From contig DASVTZ010000248.1 in assembly GCA_036387335.1 (NCBI GenBank), positions 1 to 39,514 on the forward strand: a stretch of 39,514 nucleotides of DNA, written 5' to 3'. The notes below the pieces were generated by a model. That model was not told the origin of the DNA. It did no database searches and was given only the letters and a program-made list of their open reading frames with translations. Numbering within the stretch: the first letter of the stretch is position 1; each line of letters opens with the position of its first letter. The stretch is from Longimicrobium sp. (GTDB lineage Bacteria; Gemmatimonadota; Gemmatimonadetes; Longimicrobiales; Longimicrobiaceae). A program made the position numbers and the translations under genes. Below, piece by piece: positions 4,334-30,799 of the stretch.

Positions 4334-4627
4334 ATGATCGACCTGAACGACATCTATTCTCTCAGTGATTTTCAGCGGAAGACTCGCGAACACATCGAGC
4401 GGCTCAAGCAAACCGGGAAACCAACCGTGCTTACCGTAAACGGAAAAGCGGAGCTCATCGTACAGGACGCCTCCGCGTACCAGGCGCTCCTCGATCTGGT
4501 GGAGCAGGCCGAGACGATCATTGGAATCCAGCGGGGATTGCGCGCCTTCGAGCGCGGTGATGCGCGCCCCGCGGAGGACGTGTTCGATGACCTTCTGGGT
4601 CAGGCGCCGGCACGCAAGTCGGCGTGA
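4334..4627 (+). CDS. Phd/YefM-type antitoxin
   Basis: The 97-residue product begins with an IYSLSDFQRKTREHIERLK stretch followed by PTVLTVNGKAELIVQD, the standard Phd/YefM fold whose N-terminal half dimerises and binds DNA. The C-terminal part (about 60-97) is acidic and helical, as expected for the segment that wraps the toxin. GGAGCG lies 8 bases before the ATG. Its TGA overlaps the GTG start of the next gene, so the pair is translationally coupled. By family rule it represses its own operon and neutralises the RelE/ParE protein encoded next. Confidence 0.88.
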   Translation: MIDLNDIYSLSDFQRKTREHIERLKQTGKPTVLTVNGKAELIVQDASAYQALLDLVEQAETIIGIQRGLRAFERGDARPAEDVFDDLLGQAPARKSA

Positions 4628-4932
4628 GATACCGGGTGGACGTGTCTTCTGTGGCGGAGGAGGAGCTTCGGGAGGCGAAACGATACCTGGAGAAGCACGC
4701 GCCAGAATACGTGTCCGAGTGGGGAGCGCGGATGCGGCGCGCGGTGCTGTCCCTCCGCGAGATGCCTCACCGCTGTGCTTCCGCTCCCGAGAAGGATCTG
4801 TTCGGGCTCGAGCTGCGCCATCTGTCGGTGGGATCGTACCGCATCGTCTTCCACGTCGAAGGAAAGACGGTGCGCGTTCTCTACATCCGGCATTCCGCCA
4901 TGCAGCCGCTCGATAAGGCCGACGAAGAGTGA
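4624..4932 (+). CDS. RelE/ParE-family toxin
   Basis: The 102-residue product has the order of elements seen in ParE/RelE toxins: an N-terminal strand (RYRVDVSSVA), two helices (AEEELREAKRYLEKHAP), a segment with LRHLSVGSYRIVFHVEG, and a C-terminal VRVLYIRHS strand. The central SYRIVFHV and final IRHS are the usual core strands. Targets in the family are either ribosome-bound mRNA (RelE) or gyrase (ParE), and the sequence alone does not separate them. It starts with GTG inside the antitoxin stop codon (GTGA). A DUF433 gene begins 2 bases after its stop, making a three-gene unit. Confidence 0.85.
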   Translation: MRYRVDVSSVAEEELREAKRYLEKHAPEYVSEWGARMRRAVLSLREMPHRCASAPEKDLFGLELRHLSVGSYRIVFHVEGKTVRVLYIRHSAMQPLDKADEE

Positions 4933-5241: not shown

Positions 5242-6792
5242 CTAGTGCGCGCTTGCGCCCCTGCGGATCGCCTCGCGGAGGTCGTCCATCGTGCCGTTGA
5301 GGCCGTGCACGGCGCCGATGGTGCGCACGTCCAGGCGGAACCGGCGGATGAGGGATTCGAGGTCGCGGTTGGCGTCGGGCGAGACGACGGGGCCGCCTTG
5401 CTCGTTGATGCGCAGCAGGTCGCCCTGGAAGAGGAGCTTCTGCGCGGGGACGTACACGGCCAGCATCGCGGCCGCGTGCGAGGTGGGGCCCACGTTAAGT
5501 ACCTCCACCGCGCGCGCTCCCCGGCCGATGGTGCGGCGTCCGGACAGCGTCTCGAACACCGCTTCCGGGGCCGGCGCGCGCCGCGGCTGGCCGATGCGGC
5601 CGAGGGTGCGGGTGACGGAGATCATCCGCCGGATATACGCCTCGCTCCCCGGCGCAACCAGGATCGTGGCACCTCGCGCCGCGTACGCCGGGATGCCGCC
5701 GATGTGGTCGCCGTGGTGGTGCGTGATGACCACGTAGCGGATCGGACGGCCGGGGAACGTGTGCTCGATCAGCGCGATCGCGGCGCCGGTGGCTTCGGGG
5801 TTGAGTGGCGCGTCCACCACCACCAGTCCCTCGTCCGTGTCCACCACCAGCGAACGGTAGCCACCGCCGATCCGCTCCACGAAGTACACGCCCTCCGCCA
5901 CGCGCGTCATCGCGGGCGCGCCACCGGGCGCCGGGAACGCGTAGCCCGCCGGGACGCGGAAGAGGCTGTCCGGGAGCTCGGCGGCCGGGGCGAACGAGAC
6001 CAGGCGCTGCCGTCCCGTGAGCAGCCCGTTCCAGCGCAGCTCCAGCCGGCGCGGCACCGCGAAGCCCGCGACCTGCTCGTAGCCCGCGAAGTGCACCGCA
6101 TCCACCTCGTCGCCCAGCGAGCCGTTGCCCATCTCCTCGCGGCGGATGAGGAGGTGGGTGGCGGTGTCGAAGTAGAGGGTGACCGGGTCTCCCTCGGCGG
6201 TCGTGTACGAGATCGCCTCCTCCTGCCCGGTGCGGCCGAGATGTCGCAGCGTGTTGGAGCGATCGAGGGCCTGGCGGATCAAAAGGACCGGCATGTTTGC
6301 GCCAAGCGACGATAGTGCCCGCCGCTGCTGTGTCCCCGTGGTGTCGCGCTGGAAGGTGGTGCCGCCCATTCCGCGCTCCGGGCGATGGTTGTAGCTCAGG
6401 AACTCGCGGCCGCTTCCTGCCCACCGGAACGCGTTCAGGTAGCCGCCGCCGAAGCTGAACTCGCGGTCCCACGCGAAGCGGCCGCCCGCGAGGTCGACCC
6501 GCACGTCGCTCACCACCGCGCGCGCGTTCCCGGCCGTGTCCCACGACGCGGCGGGCACGCGGCCCTGCGTGGGCGCGTAGTCCTCGCCCTCCCAGCGGAA
6601 CGAGGCCGCCGTGAGCCCGCGGATCGCAGCCGCGCCGCCGTGCGCCTCCGCGCCCAGGCGCAGTACCTCGGCGGCGCGCGAGTAGGAGCTCCACAGCGGG
6701 CCTTGCGGGGCTTGCGCGGTGAGGGCGGCGGGGGTGGGGGCGAGCAGGAGGGCGGTGAGGAGGAGATGGCGGCGCTTGGTGTGGAGGGGCAT
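5242..6792 (-). CDS. Secreted metallo-beta-lactamase-fold hydrolase with long N-terminal domain
   Basis: The 516-residue product has a signal peptide (MPLHTKRRHLLLTALLL, cleavage probably near TAQA). Residues about 30-285 form a beta-rich N-terminal domain. The metallo-beta-lactamase fold follows from about 295, with HHHGDH (ligands H358, H360, D362, H363), a further histidine at 439 (GPTSHA), an aspartate at 458 (FQGDLL) and H496 (GAVHG). All di-zinc ligands therefore appear present. The architecture resembles secreted MBL-fold hydrolases rather than a classical lactamase; the substrate is unknown. CGGAGC lies a few bases before the ATG. A palindrome at 6824-6841 matches one in front of the blaI gene, so BlaI-type control is likely. 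Confidence 0.85.
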   Translation of the reverse strand: MPLHTKRRHLLLTALLLAPTPAALTAQAPQGPLWSSYSRAAEVLRLGAEAHGGAAAIRGLTAASFRWEGEDYAPTQGRVPAASWDTAGNARAVVSDVRVDLAGGRFAWDREFSFGGGYLNAFRWAGSGREFLSYNHRPERGMGGTTFQRDTTGTQQRRALSSLGANMPVLLIRQALDRSNTLRHLGRTGQEEAISYTTAEGDPVTLYFDTATHLLIRREEMGNGSLGDEVDAVHFAGYEQVAGFAVPRRLELRWNGLLTGRQRLVSFAPAAELPDSLFRVPAGYAFPAPGGAPAMTRVAEGVYFVERIGGGYRSLVVDTDEGLVVVDAPLNPEATGAAIALIEHTFPGRPIRYVVITHHHGDHIGGIPAYAARGATILVAPGSEAYIRRMISVTRTLGRIGQPRRAPAPEAVFETLSGRRTIGRGARAVEVLNVGPTSHAAAMLAVYVPAQKLLFQGDLLRINEQGGPVVSPDANRDLESLIRRFRLDVRTIGAVHGLNGTMDDLREAIRRGASAH

Positions 6793-6823: not shown

Positions 6824-6841
6824 GTGCCAAATTTTTGGCTC
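6824..6841. promoter_or_regulatory. Palindrome, candidate BlaI operator
   Basis: GTGCCA-N6-TGGCTC lies 32-49 bases upstream of the ATG of the metallo-beta-lactamase-fold gene. It has the same half-site and the same 6-base A/T spacer as the site at 8706-8723 in front of blaI. I see it directly; the binding protein is inferred. Confidence 0.55.
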
Positions 6842-6882
6842 TTTGCTGCGCGGGGAGGGCCCTCACCCCCGTCTCGTTACAC

Positions 6883-6999
6883 TCGACTGCCCCCTCTCCC
6901 GATAACGGGAGAGGGCTGCGCCCTCGCCGTTATCTGGAGAGGGGGCTTAACTGCGGGCGCGGTACGGACATCTGTGGGGCGCGATTTATCGCGCCCGTG
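6883..6999. repeat. Intergenic palindromic repeats (CCCTCTCC type and family A)
   Basis: This gap holds an inverted repeat (CCCTCTCCCGATAACGGGAG followed by another GTTATCTGGAGAGGG arm). At 6974-6999 it has a palindrome GGGGCGCGATTTATCGCGCCC. The second is a lone member of family A, which otherwise occurs inside composite A-B-C elements in this window. Confidence 0.7.
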
Positions 7000-7044
7000 G
7001 CCGGCGACGCGCCGTCGTCTGGCGTGGCGTTCAGATAACGTGGT

Positions 7045-8280
7045 TCAGCCGCCGGGCCAGCCGAAGCGGATGACCATGCCCGCCCGTGTGCCAGGGCGGA
7101 GGCGGGCGCCGAAGCGGGCCATCGCGGGGACGGCGGGGTTGGGCTCGGTGCGCAGGGTGGCGTGCAGCGCCGCCACCGAGGCGGGGTCGCCGAAGCGGGC
7201 GATGCTCTCGGCGGCGAAGGCGCGGCGCGTCCAGTCGGGCGACGCGAGGGCGGTCCAGAGCACGTCCGGGCGCGGGCTCAGGCGCATGGAGCCGACGACG
7301 AGGACCAGCACGATGCACGCAGCGGCGGTCGCGAAGGAGATCGCGGGGGACGGCGCGGGGCGCGGGGACGGGGTCAGGATCGCGCGCAGCCTCAGGCGGA
7401 GCTGGCCGCGGCGGAGGAAGCCTGCGGCCACGATCGCCGGTCCGACGGCGCCGAAGCCGCGGGCGCCGTCCGCGATGCGCAGGAGGCACTCGGCGTAATC
7501 GGAGGGGCGGACGCCGGCGCGAAGGACGCGCTCGTCACAGGCCCGCTCCCGCTCGGTGGACAGGCGGTGCGCGGCCCACCACGCGCCCGGATGGAACCAC
7601 CAGAGCGCGCACGTCAGGTGCGCGAAGAGTTGGAGGAGGCAGTCCAGCCGCCGCACGTGGGCAAGCTCGTGCAGGAGCACGGCGCGGCGATGCGCATCCG
7701 GCCACTCGTCCGCGTCGGCGGGCAGGACGACAGCGGGGCGCAGCGTGCCCCACGTGAGCGGCGTGCCGATCCCCGCCGCGCGCAGCAGGCGCACGCGGCG
7801 CCGCACTCCCAGCGCGGCCGAGCACTCGGCGAGCAGCGCGAGCCAGCCCGCATCCTCCACCGGATGGGCACGGCGGGAGAGGAGCGCGACGGCCGTCCAT
7901 CCCCAGGCGAGGCGCCCCAGCACGAGCGCGGCGCCCGCCATCCAGGCTATCCCCAGCATCGTCGTCCAGGGCAGGGCGAGCGCGCCGGGCCAGCTCTGCG
8001 CCACCATCGTGGAGCCGATCGCCACCATCGGCTCGGCGAGGACGGAGGGGACCACGTGGGCGCTCCAGTGCAGCGGGAGCATGCGCAGCTCCGGCAGCGG
8101 GAGCAGGGCGACGAGGGCCGCGGCCCAGAGCTGCGCCCGTACGGAGGCGGGTGCGCGGCGGAGGAGGAGGGCCGCCGCGGCCAGGATCAGCAGCAGGAGG
8201 GTGGCGCGGAGGGAGGTGGCGTAGCGGAGCCAGGCCCACTCCGGACTCCACACCGGGTCCAGCGCCATCCACCCGTTCAC
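7045..8280 (-). CDS. BlaR1/MecR1-like M56 family membrane metallopeptidase
   Basis: The 411-residue product has membrane helices at about 22-40, 50-62 and 105-123, then a cytosolic gluzincin domain with HELAH (H204, E205, H208) and STERERACDE (about 241-250), the zinc-binding pattern of M56 peptidases. A fourth helix (about 314-331) follows. The C-terminal 80 residues look like one or two HEAT-type repeats (LWTALASPDWTRRAFAAESI) rather than the penicillin-binding sensor of true BlaR1. The GTG start overlaps the blaI stop (GTGA) and has GAGGAGGGG just before it. Known logic: a signal activates the protease, which leads to BlaI cleavage and derepression. The signal sensed here is unknown. Confidence 0.85.
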   Translation of the reverse strand: MNGWMALDPVWSPEWAWLRYATSLRATLLLLILAAAALLLRRAPASVRAQLWAAALVALLPLPELRMLPLHWSAHVVPSVLAEPMVAIGSTMVAQSWPGALALPWTTMLGIAWMAGAALVLGRLAWGWTAVALLSRRAHPVEDAGWLALLAECSAALGVRRRVRLLRAAGIGTPLTWGTLRPAVVLPADADEWPDAHRRAVLLHELAHVRRLDCLLQLFAHLTCALWWFHPGAWWAAHRLSTERERACDERVLRAGVRPSDYAECLLRIADGARGFGAVGPAIVAAGFLRRGQLRLRLRAILTPSPRPAPSPAISFATAAACIVLVLVVGSMRLSPRPDVLWTALASPDWTRRAFAAESIARFGDPASVAALHATLRTEPNPAVPAMARFGARLRPGTRAGMVIRFGWPGG

Positions 8281-8672
8281 CGCCCCTCCTCGCGCTCGCG
8301 GCGGATCATCTCGACCAGCTCGTCGCGCTCTTTCGGCGTCAGCGGGCGCTCGGAGAGGTCCAGGAGCGTCGCGACGGCGGCGCGGGGCGAGCCGCCGAAG
8401 AAGGTACGCAGCAGGTGCGCCGCAGCCGAGCGCTGCGCCGAGTCGCGCGGCACGGTGGGAAGGTAGATGTGGCGCGGGCCATCCTTTTCGTGCTTCAGGT
8501 GCCCCTTGTCCTCCAGAATGCGCAGCATGGTGCGCACGGCTGTGGCGCTGGGCGGGTCCGGAAGGCGCTCGTGGATCTCGGACGCGCTCGCCCGCCCCAG
8601 GCGGAAGACGACGTCCATGATCTGGCGCTCGCGGCGGCTCAGCTCGGAGTCGGGGGAGGTGTCGGAGGCCAT
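8277..8672 (-). CDS. blaI: BlaI/MecI/CopY-family repressor
   Basis: The 131-residue product has a winged helix at about 8-75: LSRRERQIMDVVFRLGRASA, then a VRTMLRILEDKGHLKHEKDG recognition-helix/wing segment close to BlaI and MecI. A C-terminal helical dimerisation part with an LLDLSERPLTPKERDELVEM-like stretch follows. ATG 8672 is used because the family begins about here; the upstream open frame is not conserved-looking. It is the first gene of a two-gene unit with the M56 peptidase. A palindrome overlapping its own -10 box suggests autoregulation. It is divergent from the kinase-RapZ gene, which it may also control. Confidence 0.88.
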   Translation of the reverse strand: MASDTSPDSELSRRERQIMDVVFRLGRASASEIHERLPDPPSATAVRTMLRILEDKGHLKHEKDGPRHIYLPTVPRDSAQRSAAAHLLRTFFGGSPRAAVATLLDLSERPLTPKERDELVEMIRREREEGR

Positions 8673-8705
8673 CGTCGAGGCGTGCGGGGGAGGTGGATCG
8701 CTCTG

Positions 8706-8723
8706 GTGCCAAAATAATGGCAC
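8706..8723. promoter_or_regulatory. Palindrome, candidate BlaI operator
   Basis: A perfect inverted repeat GTGCCA-N6-TGGCAC lies in the divergent region, 34-51 bases before the blaI ATG. It covers the predicted -10 box of blaI. The same arrangement is found at 6824-6841. MecI/BlaI operators are likewise short dyads overlapping promoters, though with a different sequence. Confidence 0.65.
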
Positions 8724-8739
8724 ACCTGGGCGAAGGCAA
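8711..8739 (-). promoter_or_regulatory. Predicted promoter of blaI-blaR1
   Basis: Read on the minus strand, TTGCCT (8739-8734) and TATTTT (8716-8711) are separated by 17 bases. The -10 lies inside the palindrome at 8706-8723, which fits repression by occlusion. Confidence 0.55.
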
Positions 8740-8834: not shown

Positions 8835-10328
8835 GTGGAGCAGATTTTTATTCGTTTGTTCGAGGAGCGGTTCGGCAAGCCGCCGGCCTCCATCCTCCAG
8901 ATCGAGGGCGATGGCTCCAGCCGCGCCATGTACCGCTTGATCGGCGACGGGATGGAGACGGCGGTGGGCGTGGTGGGCCCCGACCGCGACGAGAACCGCG
9001 CCTTCCTCTCGTACTCGCGCGCCTTCCGCTCCATCGACCTTCCCGTGCCCGAAATCTACGCGGTGGACGAGGAGGCGGGGCTGTACCTGGAAGAGGACCT
9101 GGGCGAGACGACGCTCTTCGACGCCATCGTCGAGGCGCGCGCTGAGGACCCAGGGGCCGACTTCCCCGCCGCCATGATCCCCATCTACAAGCGGATCCTG
9201 GAGACCCTCCCCCGCTTCCAGGTGGAGGGAGGCAAGGTGATCGACTACTCGGTCGCGTACCCGCGCGCCGCGTTCGACCGCCAGTCGATCCTGTGGGACC
9301 TGAACTACTTCAAGTACCACTTCCTGAAGCTGGCGCACGTCGACTTCAACGAGGCGCGCCTCGAAAAAGACTTCCGCCGGCTGACGACGTTCCTGCTGGC
9401 GGCGGACACGCGCCACTTCCTGTACCGCGACTTCCAGAGCCGCAACGTGATGCTGCGCGACGGCGAGCCCTGGTTCATCGACTACCAGGGCGGCCGCCGC
9501 GGCGCGCTGCAGTACGACGTCGCGTCGCTGCTGTACGACCCCAAGGCGGGGATCCCGGAGGCGCTGCGCGAGGAGCTGCTGGAGCACTACCTGGACGCGC
9601 TGCACGAGCACCTTTCAAGGGTGGACCGCGAGCGCTTCCGCCAGCACTTCCGCGGGTACGTGCTCGTGCGCATCATGCAGGCGATGGGGGCGTACGGCTA
9701 CCGCGGCTTCTTTGAGCGCAAGCCGCGCTTCCTGCAGAGCGTGCCGGGCGCCATCCGCAACATCGAGCGGCTGCTGGAGACCGGCTTCGTGGCGCTGGAG
9801 CTCCCCGAGCTGCGCTCCGTCTTCGAGCGGATCTGCAACAACGCGGCGCTGCGGAAGTCGCAGCCCAAGCCGTTGCCCGGGCTCACGCTGTACGTGGGGA
9901 GCTTCTCGTACAAGGGCGGCTATCCGGACGACAGCGGCGGGCACGGTGGCGGCTTCGTCTTCGACTGCCGCGCGGTTCACAACCCCGGGCGCTATCCGGA
10001 GTATGCGCCGCTCTGCGGGTGCGACGAGCCCGTCAGCGAGTTCCTGGACACGCTCCCCGAGACGGCGGAGTTCTGGGAGAACGTGCGCGACCTGGTGGAG
10101 CGGCAGGTGGGGGTGTACCTCACCCGCGGATTCCAGTCGCTCAGCGTGTACTTCGGGTGCACGGGGGGGCAGCACCGCTCCGTCTACTTCGCGGAGAAGC
10201 TGGCGGCCCACCTGCGCACGTACTACCCCTCGGTGAACGTGGTGCTCAGCCACCGCGAAGAGGGGAAGTGGCCCGCGCGCCGCGCCGCCGCCGAAGCAGC
10301 CTCCCGGGCCCACCTCGCGGTGGTCTGA
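8835..10328 (+). CDS. AmgK-like sugar kinase fused to RapZ C-terminal domain
   Basis: The 497-residue product joins two domains. Residues about 1-335 are an aminoglycoside-phosphotransferase-fold kinase: GDGSSRAMYR near 26-34, catalytic YRDFQSRNVML (D199, N204) and metal-binding IDYQGG (D216). This pattern fits AmgK, the anomeric kinase for MurNAc/GlcNAc in cell-wall recycling. Residues about 350-497 match the RapZ C-terminal domain: SFSYKGGYP, FVFDCRAVHNP and GCTGGQHRSV. In E. coli that half of RapZ senses glucosamine-6-phosphate and binds the GlmZ RNA. The RapZ P-loop half is absent. The start is GTG 8835, with AGGAAG upstream. The next gene, MurU-like, begins 2 bases after the stop. Similar fusions are, as I recall, seen in Bacteroidota. 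Confidence 0.82.
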   Translation: MEQIFIRLFEERFGKPPASILQIEGDGSSRAMYRLIGDGMETAVGVVGPDRDENRAFLSYSRAFRSIDLPVPEIYAVDEEAGLYLEEDLGETTLFDAIVEARAEDPGADFPAAMIPIYKRILETLPRFQVEGGKVIDYSVAYPRAAFDRQSILWDLNYFKYHFLKLAHVDFNEARLEKDFRRLTTFLLAADTRHFLYRDFQSRNVMLRDGEPWFIDYQGGRRGALQYDVASLLYDPKAGIPEALREELLEHYLDALHEHLSRVDRERFRQHFRGYVLVRIMQAMGAYGYRGFFERKPRFLQSVPGAIRNIERLLETGFVALELPELRSVFERICNNAALRKSQPKPLPGLTLYVGSFSYKGGYPDDSGGHGGGFVFDCRAVHNPGRYPEYAPLCGCDEPVSEFLDTLPETAEFWENVRDLVERQVGVYLTRGFQSLSVYFGCTGGQHRSVYFAEKLAAHLRTYYPSVNVVLSHREEGKWPARRAAAEAASRAHLAVV

Positions 10329-10330
10329 GC

Positions 10331-11059
10331 GTGGACGCCCTGATCCTGGCGGCCGGGCTGGGTACGCGCCTCCGGCCGCTGACCGACCACACCCCCAAGG
10401 CGCTGATCGACGTGGGCGGCGTCCCCATGCTGGAGCGCGTCGCCCGCCGGCTGATCGAGGCGGGCGCGGACCGGCTGATCGTCAACACGCACCACCTGGG
10501 CGAGCAGATCGCGCGCTACGTGGAGGAGCGTGGCGGCTTCGGCGTGGAGACGGTCATCTCGCACGAAGAGGGCGAGCCGCTGGAGACGGGCGGCGCGCTC
10601 GTGGCCGCGACCGACCTCTTCCGCAAGGACGCGCCCTTTTTCGTCCACAACGCGGACATCCTCACCGACCTCCCGCTGGCCGAGATGTACGCGGCGCACG
10701 TGGAGGCCGGCGACCCGCTCGCCACGCTGGCGGTGATGGAGCGCCCCAGCACGCGCGGCTTCCTCTTCGACGACGCGGGGCTGCTGGGCCGTGTGGACCA
10801 CACGAAGAAGCTGGACATCCGCGTGCGCCCGGCCGTGGGCGAGGCGAGGGCGGTGCCGTTCGCGGGGGTGCACGTGATCTCGCCGCGCATCTTCGGGCTG
10901 CTGACGGAGCGGGGCGCCTTCTCGGTGCTCGACCCGTACCTGCGCCTGGCGGGCGTCGGCGAGCGCGTCCTCCCCTTTCGCGTGGACGGCCGCCTCTGGC
11001 TGGACATCGGGCGCCCGGAACAGCTCGAGGCGGCGCGGGCGGCGGTGGCGAAGGGGTGA
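10331..11059 (+). CDS. murU: MurU-like sugar-1-phosphate nucleotidyltransferase
   Basis: The 242-residue product has the nucleotidyltransferase signature LAAGLGTRLRPLT at about 6-18, then PKALIDVGGVPML, and HNADILTDL, whose D-x-D-like aspartate binds the metal. It ends with WLDIGRPEQL. The length and the absence of a left-handed beta-helix acyltransferase domain fit MurU (MurNAc-1-phosphate uridylyltransferase) better than GlmU. Its GTG start is 2 bases after the kinase stop, so the two are co-translated. Together they would turn MurNAc (and perhaps GlcNAc) into the UDP-sugar, bypassing de novo synthesis. Other sugar specificities (mannose-1-P, glucose-1-P) are possible. Confidence 0.8.
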   Translation: MDALILAAGLGTRLRPLTDHTPKALIDVGGVPMLERVARRLIEAGADRLIVNTHHLGEQIARYVEERGGFGVETVISHEEGEPLETGGALVAATDLFRKDAPFFVHNADILTDLPLAEMYAAHVEAGDPLATLAVMERPSTRGFLFDDAGLLGRVDHTKKLDIRVRPAVGEARAVPFAGVHVISPRIFGLLTERGAFSVLDPYLRLAGVGERVLPFRVDGRLWLDIGRPEQLEAARAAVAKG

Positions 11060-17243: not shown

Positions 17244-17483
17244 GCCGGGGGGCATGCGAGCCGCTAGGCCCGCCATTTCCCCCCGCGCACACAGCCCCAC
17301 GGAACCGAAATCCTGTTTCGGCAGCGTGAATGTAGCGCCCCCCCGCGCCCTCGTCTGTAGGGAACCGCCCGACAGCCGTGTGGGGCGCCCCCTCCGGGCC
17401 CCCTCCCCCCGGCCCCCTCCCCCGCCTGCGGGGGCGCAGGGCGGGTGAGGGGGAGAACTACCCTCCGCCTCACACCGATCCCG

Positions 17484-17648
17484 TAGGGGCGCGATTCATC
17501 GCGCCCGTGCCCGCCTGCGCCCCGACCCTCTCTCTCGCACACCGACGCCGGTAGGGGCAGACCTGCGTGTCTGCCCACCCTCGCCCCTGCCCCGATCCCG
17601 CCTGACGCACACGATGCGCGTAGGGGCCGCCCCACGTGGCTGCCCGTG
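17484..17648 (+). repeat. Composite palindromic element A-B-C, copy 1
   Basis: Three different palindromes each begin with TAGGGGC: A at 17484-17510 (core GCGCGATTCATCGCGC), B at 17552-17578 (core GCAGACCTGCGTGTCTGC) and C at 17621-17648 (core CCCCACGTGGCTGCCC). The start-to-start spacing is 68 and 69 bases. The DNA between them is GC-rich and not palindromic. Confidence 0.8.
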
Positions 17649-30634: not shown

Positions 30635-30799
30635 ACGGGCAGCCACATGGGGCAGCCCCTACGAAACCCCGGCCCTGCAGCGAGAATGGCGGCGCGGGCA
30701 GGGGCGGGCAGACACGCAGGTCTGCCCCTACAGGAATCGCGCGGTCATGCAGGGCGCGGGGCGGCGTCAGGCACGGGCGCGATAAATCGCGCCCCTACA
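30635..30799 (-). repeat. Composite palindromic element A-B-C, copy 3 (inverted)
   Basis: C at 30635-30662, B at 30705-30731 and A at 30773-30799, with spacings of 70 and 68 bases and each palindrome ending CCCCTAC. Read on the minus strand this is A, B, C in the same order and spacing as copy 1. Confidence 0.8.

Follow-up and report, generated by a model that had tools for sequence, protein, structure and literature searches.

Two short inverted repeats in a 39,514-nucleotide stretch of Longimicrobium DNA (the window) are very probably the operators of the BlaI repressor encoded beside them, rewired from a TGCTA-N6-TAGCA site and governing both the blaI-M56 operon and the gene of a secreted hydrolase. 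Through them BlaI probably switches off its own operon and this secreted, metal-dependent hydrolase gene. The wider result is an operator common to a BlaI subfamily, together with a variant of it that is linked to the recognition helix. The features concerned are as follows.

8706-8723, strand not assigned: predicted BlaI operator 1, GTGCCAAAATAATGGCAC, 5' of blaI-M56 and over the predicted -10 box
6824-6841, strand not assigned: predicted BlaI operator 2, GTGCCAAATTTTTGGCTC, 5' of the secreted metallo-beta-lactamase-fold gene
8734-8739, minus strand: candidate -35 element TTGCCT of the blaI promoter, from sequence, kept in the sister species
8711-8716, minus strand: candidate -10 element of the blaI promoter, TATTTT, lying within operator 1 (TATCTT in the sister species)
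8277-8672, minus strand: blaI, whose product is a Penicillinase_R repressor of 131 aa (recognition helix SATAVR; PF03965, 1e-27)
7045-8280, minus strand: M56 (BlaR1-type) membrane metalloprotease, 411 aa (PF05569, 7.3e-32, 111 bits; HELAH)
5242-6792, minus strand: secreted 516-aa metallo-beta-lactamase-fold hydrolase, the putative second target (PF00753, 5.4e-18, residues 314-492)
8835-10328, plus strand: fusion of an AmgK-like sugar kinase and a RapZ C-terminal domain, divergent from blaI, also in the sister species
About 10325-11059, plus strand: MurU-like nucleotidyltransferase following the AmgK-like kinase, a reading of the sequence, also in the sister species

The window BlaI has a Penicillinase_R winged-helix domain (97 bits for PF03965 against a cut-off of 22.6), aligns to the BlaI/MecI/CopY-family structures 1sd4, 1sd6 and 2k4b, and is the product of one of 15 BlaI-family genes in the genome. 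The M56 gene, whose GTG start overlaps the blaI stop, lies between the two dyads. Of the classical BlaR1-BlaI traits, the adjacent M56 zinc metalloprotease is present and the C-terminal penicillin-binding sensor domain is not recognisable: profile searches with the M56 protein returned no PBP/transpeptidase or penicillin-binding domain match, its C terminus gave a weak HEAT match only, and blaR1_generic was matched at profile positions 104-272 only, with 85 bits against a cut-off of 400. Since a protease of 411 aa has no penicillin-binding domain match, classical binding of a beta-lactam is probably not the signal. The hydrolase carries an N-terminal signal-like sequence and an HHHGDH motif, and falls under the curated beta-lactamase cut-offs (bla_subclass_B1, 46.6 bits against 200; bla_class_B_core, 48 against 100); its scores place it in the metallo-beta-lactamase superfamily by fold only, and not among the class B metallo-beta-lactamases. 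A beta-lactam signal, which the original prediction had entertained, is thus left unsupported by either protein.

Both dyads fit GTGCCA-N6-TGGC(A/T)C, with equal half-site spacing and at the positions originally predicted, and both lie upstream of minus-strand genes. The distances to the start codons, 33 bases between operator 1 and the blaI ATG (8672) and 31 bases between operator 2 and the ATG of the metallo-beta-lactamase-fold gene (6792), agree with the 32-34 bases that had been proposed, and the proposed blaI promoter, TTGCCT and TATTTT separated by a 17-bp spacer with the dyad over the -10 box, is likewise present. The promoter pair matches the consensus at 8 of 12 positions, which is under the threshold of the promoter scanner, and reads TTGCCT/TATCTT in the sister species; for the hydrolase no good -35/-10 pair was found. 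Each of these two promoters has one dyad. Operator 2 is imperfect, with one half-site of the form (G/A)AGCCA (GAGCCA in the window, AAGCCA in the sister species). This degenerate half-site and the lack of a clear promoter overlap would suit an arrangement in which operator 1 is a true autoregulatory site and operator 2 either arose by chance or serves a different regulator, possibly one of the 14 other BlaI paralogues. Such an arrangement would also fit the observation that most BlaI loci have operators at blaI only, 669 kb of loci having yielded a single exact site elsewhere than at a blaI promoter. It is nonetheless improbable in view of the distribution of the motif, its conservation, and the recurrence of second operators in relatives.

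Pattern scans of the 5.82 Mb genome gave 10 matches to GTGCCA-N6-TGGC(A/T)C with one mismatch allowed, against 11 for the reversed control, and no information came from the broader GTGCY-N8-RGCAC, which had 78 sites to the 86 of its control. The bare pattern is not discriminating, and it is the A/T core that makes the difference. GCCA-WWWWWW-TGGC occurs exactly twice in 5,823,891 bases, at the two window dyads 1.9 kb apart, with no occurrence of the control, and among the copies of the full pattern in the genome these two only have an A/T core. A motif confined to two places in the window, with a control count of zero, is far beyond chance. The original prediction had held that chance was unlikely and had named a random occurrence of the motif at similar frequency as the outcome that would count against it; the claim stands for the A/T-core version, whereas the count for the bare pattern comes near to that very outcome.

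The sister species (genome G013), whose BlaI is 98% and whose hydrolase is 92% identical, has both dyads. Operator 1 reads GTGCCAAGATAATGGCAC there (L064, 6246-6263), and the core of operator 2 is AAGCCAAAAAATTGGCAC, its dyad kept while the bases immediately to either side have diverged, which again argues against a chance origin of operator 2.

Because the half-site is not the canonical TACA core of BlaI/CopY operators, the palindrome might instead belong to another transcription factor that co-regulates these genes, a proposal made very improbable by comparison with BlaI genes elsewhere. BlaI upstream regions were taken from the window genome, from 40 relatives and from 80 named loci (Gemmatimonadota, Acidobacteriota, Planctomycetota, Bacteroidota, Myxococcota, Verrucomicrobiota and others), and the comparison set comprised 121 non-redundant regions, 101 of them belonging to BlaIs with an (S/G/T)Y(S/N)xVR helix and 20 to BlaIs with other helices. 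Within about 200 bp upstream, TGCTA-N6-TAGCA is found exactly in 74 of the 101 and with at most one mismatch in 88, as against none of the 20 other-helix regions even with the mismatch; Fisher values for this contrast are not to be taken literally because the sequences are related, but the controls on arm and gap were run on that same set. When every one of the 1024 possible 5-bp arms is counted, TGCTA leads with the same 74, followed by TGCTG (7/101) and then by a count of 2, and matches appear with a 6-bp gap only. In most promoters of the subfamily the operator is present twice in tandem, commonly at a spacing of 18-19 bp. The window dyad keeps the same 16/18-bp register as TGCCA-N6-TGGCA, T being replaced by C in each half-site (two mismatches in total), and shares its length, gap and upstream position with dyads at about 100 BlaI homologues from many phyla. 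Judged by this register, the window dyads are a local variant of the BlaI site that stands upstream of BlaI genes in many phyla.

The TGCCA form was found only at two SATAVR BlaIs among those examined, and its absence from every other BlaI is a further point against operator 2 being a chance site or the site of another protein. Over 395 genomes of the phylum, TGCCA-WWNNWW-TGGCA was present in 16 genomes against 12 for the control (a table count); the variant is therefore not widespread, and a pattern about as rare as its control is not the site of a widespread regulator. No BlaI or M56 relative lies within 1.5 kb on each side of 15 TGCCA-pattern loci from other genomes, including that of G135, which has the identical core. 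The open-access library searched yielded no earlier description of the TGCTA operator, which is a weak sign of novelty, publication or a supplement elsewhere being possible.

That the dyads act as RNA hairpins (an intrinsic terminator or a 5'-UTR element) rather than as protein-binding DNA is scarcely credible and was rejected: both can form stems of 5-6 bp, with folding z of -1.2 and -2.5 and one terminator-like call (6826-6839, plus strand), but operator 1 lies between divergent genes and over the -10 box, with nothing to terminate, the hydrolase gene and the T-run of operator 2 are on opposite strands and the sister species does not keep the run, and homologues preserve the DNA register and gap rather than a stem-loop-tail form.

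The recognition helix of MecI comprises Ser41-Asn56 (PMC5341023), and SATAVR of the window BlaI aligns to S-P-K-T-I-R at its start (1sd6). In the tree, the two SATAVR BlaIs and two HAAAVR BlaIs form one group (99/89) within the subfamily clade (100/99). The simplest reading of these sequences is that an ancestral TGCTA operator became TGCCA while the helix passed from SYSAVR to SATAVR, such that repressor and operator would have changed together; the TGCCA variant is found in two genomes only, and the co-change of helix and operator rests on a single lineage. Other helices have other sites: TDSAVR BlaIs have TGTTGA-N4-TCAACA-like sites (L045, L047), and an HAAAVR BlaI has the dyad GGGACAAGAAATTGTCTC (L129 only), with no metallo-beta-lactamase-fold homologue near the HAAAVR sister BlaIs L128 and L129. 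Some SYSAVR BlaIs have exceptional half-sites (TGGCA at L163 and L203, TGGTA at L194), and a one-residue code is therefore not claimed; individual helix residues may play a part. The broader proposal, that a BlaI subfamily of many phyla shares TGCTA-N6-TAGCA and that helix and operator co-vary within it (SATAVR/TGCCA, with TDSAVR/TGTTGA and HAAAVR/GGACAA as candidates), has about an even chance of being correct. The SATAVR/TGCCA pairing may insulate the window unit from the remaining BlaI paralogues of the 15. If the proposal is true, genomes with many BlaI-M56 units would gain insulated switches, several of which would control secreted hydrolases or envelope proteins and would answer to signals that are not beta-lactams.

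Further dyad types were seen at BlaI genes of the same genome. A second operator type, the dyad CTAC-N10-GTAG, is found a short way 5' of the starts of AYTxVL-helix BlaIs (L057, L058, L060), and two blaI paralogues (L052, L054) are preceded by the odd-centred dyads TGTACTGAC...GTCAATACA and TGCATTGACA-CTA-TGTCAATGCA, which differ from even-centred BlaI sites.

An operator-like site after the M56 gene and 5' of a long secreted-protein gene also occurs in G012, G011 and G014 (L225-L227), in another unit of the window genome (L230, G000:C195) and at L134. The downstream protein is CBM9-DUF5916 in four of these five loci (G011, G014, G000:C195, L134), and the long ORF after the second operator of G012, as read, had no family match. 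The layout of the window, with one operator at blaI and a second 5' of a secreted protein, is not isolated, though the downstream gene differs, and this recurrence counts against a chance origin of operator 2. In the 80 loci, additional one-mismatch TGCTA sites did not exceed the controls in number (5 against 1-23), and the second-site argument therefore rests on position and downstream gene. Sites of the SYSAVR type (TGCTR-N6-YAGCA) were also observed 5' of other genes in this genome or the sister genome:

L113, 1501-1516: SYSAVR-type site 5' of a secreted M16 peptidase gene, conserved in both genomes
L115, 1501-1516: SYSAVR-type site 5' of a metallophosphoesterase gene, conserved in both genomes
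L124, 1501-1516: SYSAVR-type site 5' of a DUF5117 protein gene
L224, 1286-1301: SYSAVR-type site 5' of an S41 peptidase gene

The AmgK-like and MurU-like genes divergent from blaI are, from their sequences, an apparent MurNAc-recycling pair, and as neighbours of blaI they hint at wall recycling, an adjacency found in the sister species only. The AmgK-like gene is not favoured as the main target of the operator, since, of the BlaI loci scanned, only that of the sister species has it beside blaI, and its GTG start is 111 bp from the dyad. Elsewhere in the window, a gene pair at 4334-4932 (plus strand) encodes a Phd/YefM-type antitoxin and a ParE-type toxin (PF02604, just under its cut-off, and PF05016), and a PADLOC search gave no relevant match. 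A palindromic element at 6889-6946 (TCTCCCGTTATCGGGAGAGGG...) lies between the M56 and hydrolase genes; a blastn comparison with the sister locus finds related pieces near window positions 17478-17513 and 30774-30799, and it is possibly a dispersed intergenic repeat.

The regulon originally proposed, an M56 protease, BlaI and a secreted hydrolase, found support in every comparative test, namely the uniqueness of the A/T core, the presence of both sites in the sister species, a register shared with the operators of about 100 BlaI homologues, and the recurring post-M56 operator. In the mechanism envisaged, a BlaI dimer would bind GTGCCA-W6-TGGCAC over the blaI-M56 promoter, resulting in autorepression, and would also occupy the near-identical site 5' of the secreted metallo-beta-lactamase-fold hydrolase. 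An envelope signal would activate the M56 protease and lead to inactivation of BlaI, by analogy with BlaR1 cleaving BlaI, and the blaI-M56 and hydrolase units would then be switched on together. Direct cleavage of BlaI by BlaR1 occurs in S. aureus, where the sensor domain of BlaR1 comprises residues 332-585 (PMC9834060). For B. licheniformis BlaI a peptidoglycan-fragment co-activator was shown (PMC3305447). By analogy, a co-activator of this kind may be an alternative input for the window BlaI.

Homology is the usual ground for labelling BlaI-M56 pairs as regulators of beta-lactam resistance. In the window unit, the operator, the missing sensor domain and the target gene point elsewhere, to envelope-linked proteolytic switches that control secreted enzymes. 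An operator that crosses phyla offers a direct route to predicting the targets of many BlaI paralogues of soil bacteria, and the window variant offers a minimal natural test of how the BlaI recognition helix reads DNA.

Compared with known systems, the mec-bla divergon of S. aureus and Macrococcus (BlaI/MecI, BlaR1/MecR1) is similar in its pair of repressor and M56 protease, and in a palindromic operator that covers the promoter and through which the repressor, by prediction in the window, governs a target gene as well as its own operon. The divergon differs in its half-site, TTACA as opposed to TGCCA (the MecI/BlaI operator consensus is [A/G]NATTACA[A/T]NTGTA[A/G][T/G]NT; PMC5341023), in a penicillin-binding sensor domain that is not recognisable in the window M56 protein, and in its targets, BlaZ or PBP2a as opposed to a metallo-beta-lactamase-fold hydrolase. 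The CopR/CopY operator, with a core TACANNTGTA extended to RNYKACANNTGTMRNY (PMC7253601), has the same dyad centre and length class, and TGCTA operators fit its Y at -6, K at -5 and A at -4. In contrast, the window site has a C that violates K at -5, lacks the central ACA/TGT and reads GCCAAAATAATGGC and GCCAAATTTTTGGC at the two dyads in place of the canonical TACANNTGTA, and the window BlaI is without CXC copper motifs. By these comparisons, the window site shares the dyad frame of BlaI operators and not the canonical core.

The C. thermocellum repressors BlaI_0696 and BlaI_1845, characterized by DAP-seq and EMSA, have regulons of three operons and one operon, self-regulation included, and bind short repeat probes in EMSA; their GTCTAT/GACTAT half-sites form inverted repeats 5 nt apart, and four-protomer sites are apparently required (PMC8457756). 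Autoregulation, which is predicted for the window BlaI, paired operators and a CTA core resembling GTGCTA are points of likeness, whereas the phylum, the 5-nt spacing and the four-protomer sites, as against one dyad per window promoter, are points of difference. Set against the TGCTA-N6-TAGCA subfamily, the window unit differs in having TGCCA for the TGCTA half-site, SATAVR for SYSAVR and a single rather than a tandem operator, and agrees with it in belonging to the same clade by tree, in the 18-bp register, and in the position of the operator 5' of blaI-M56.
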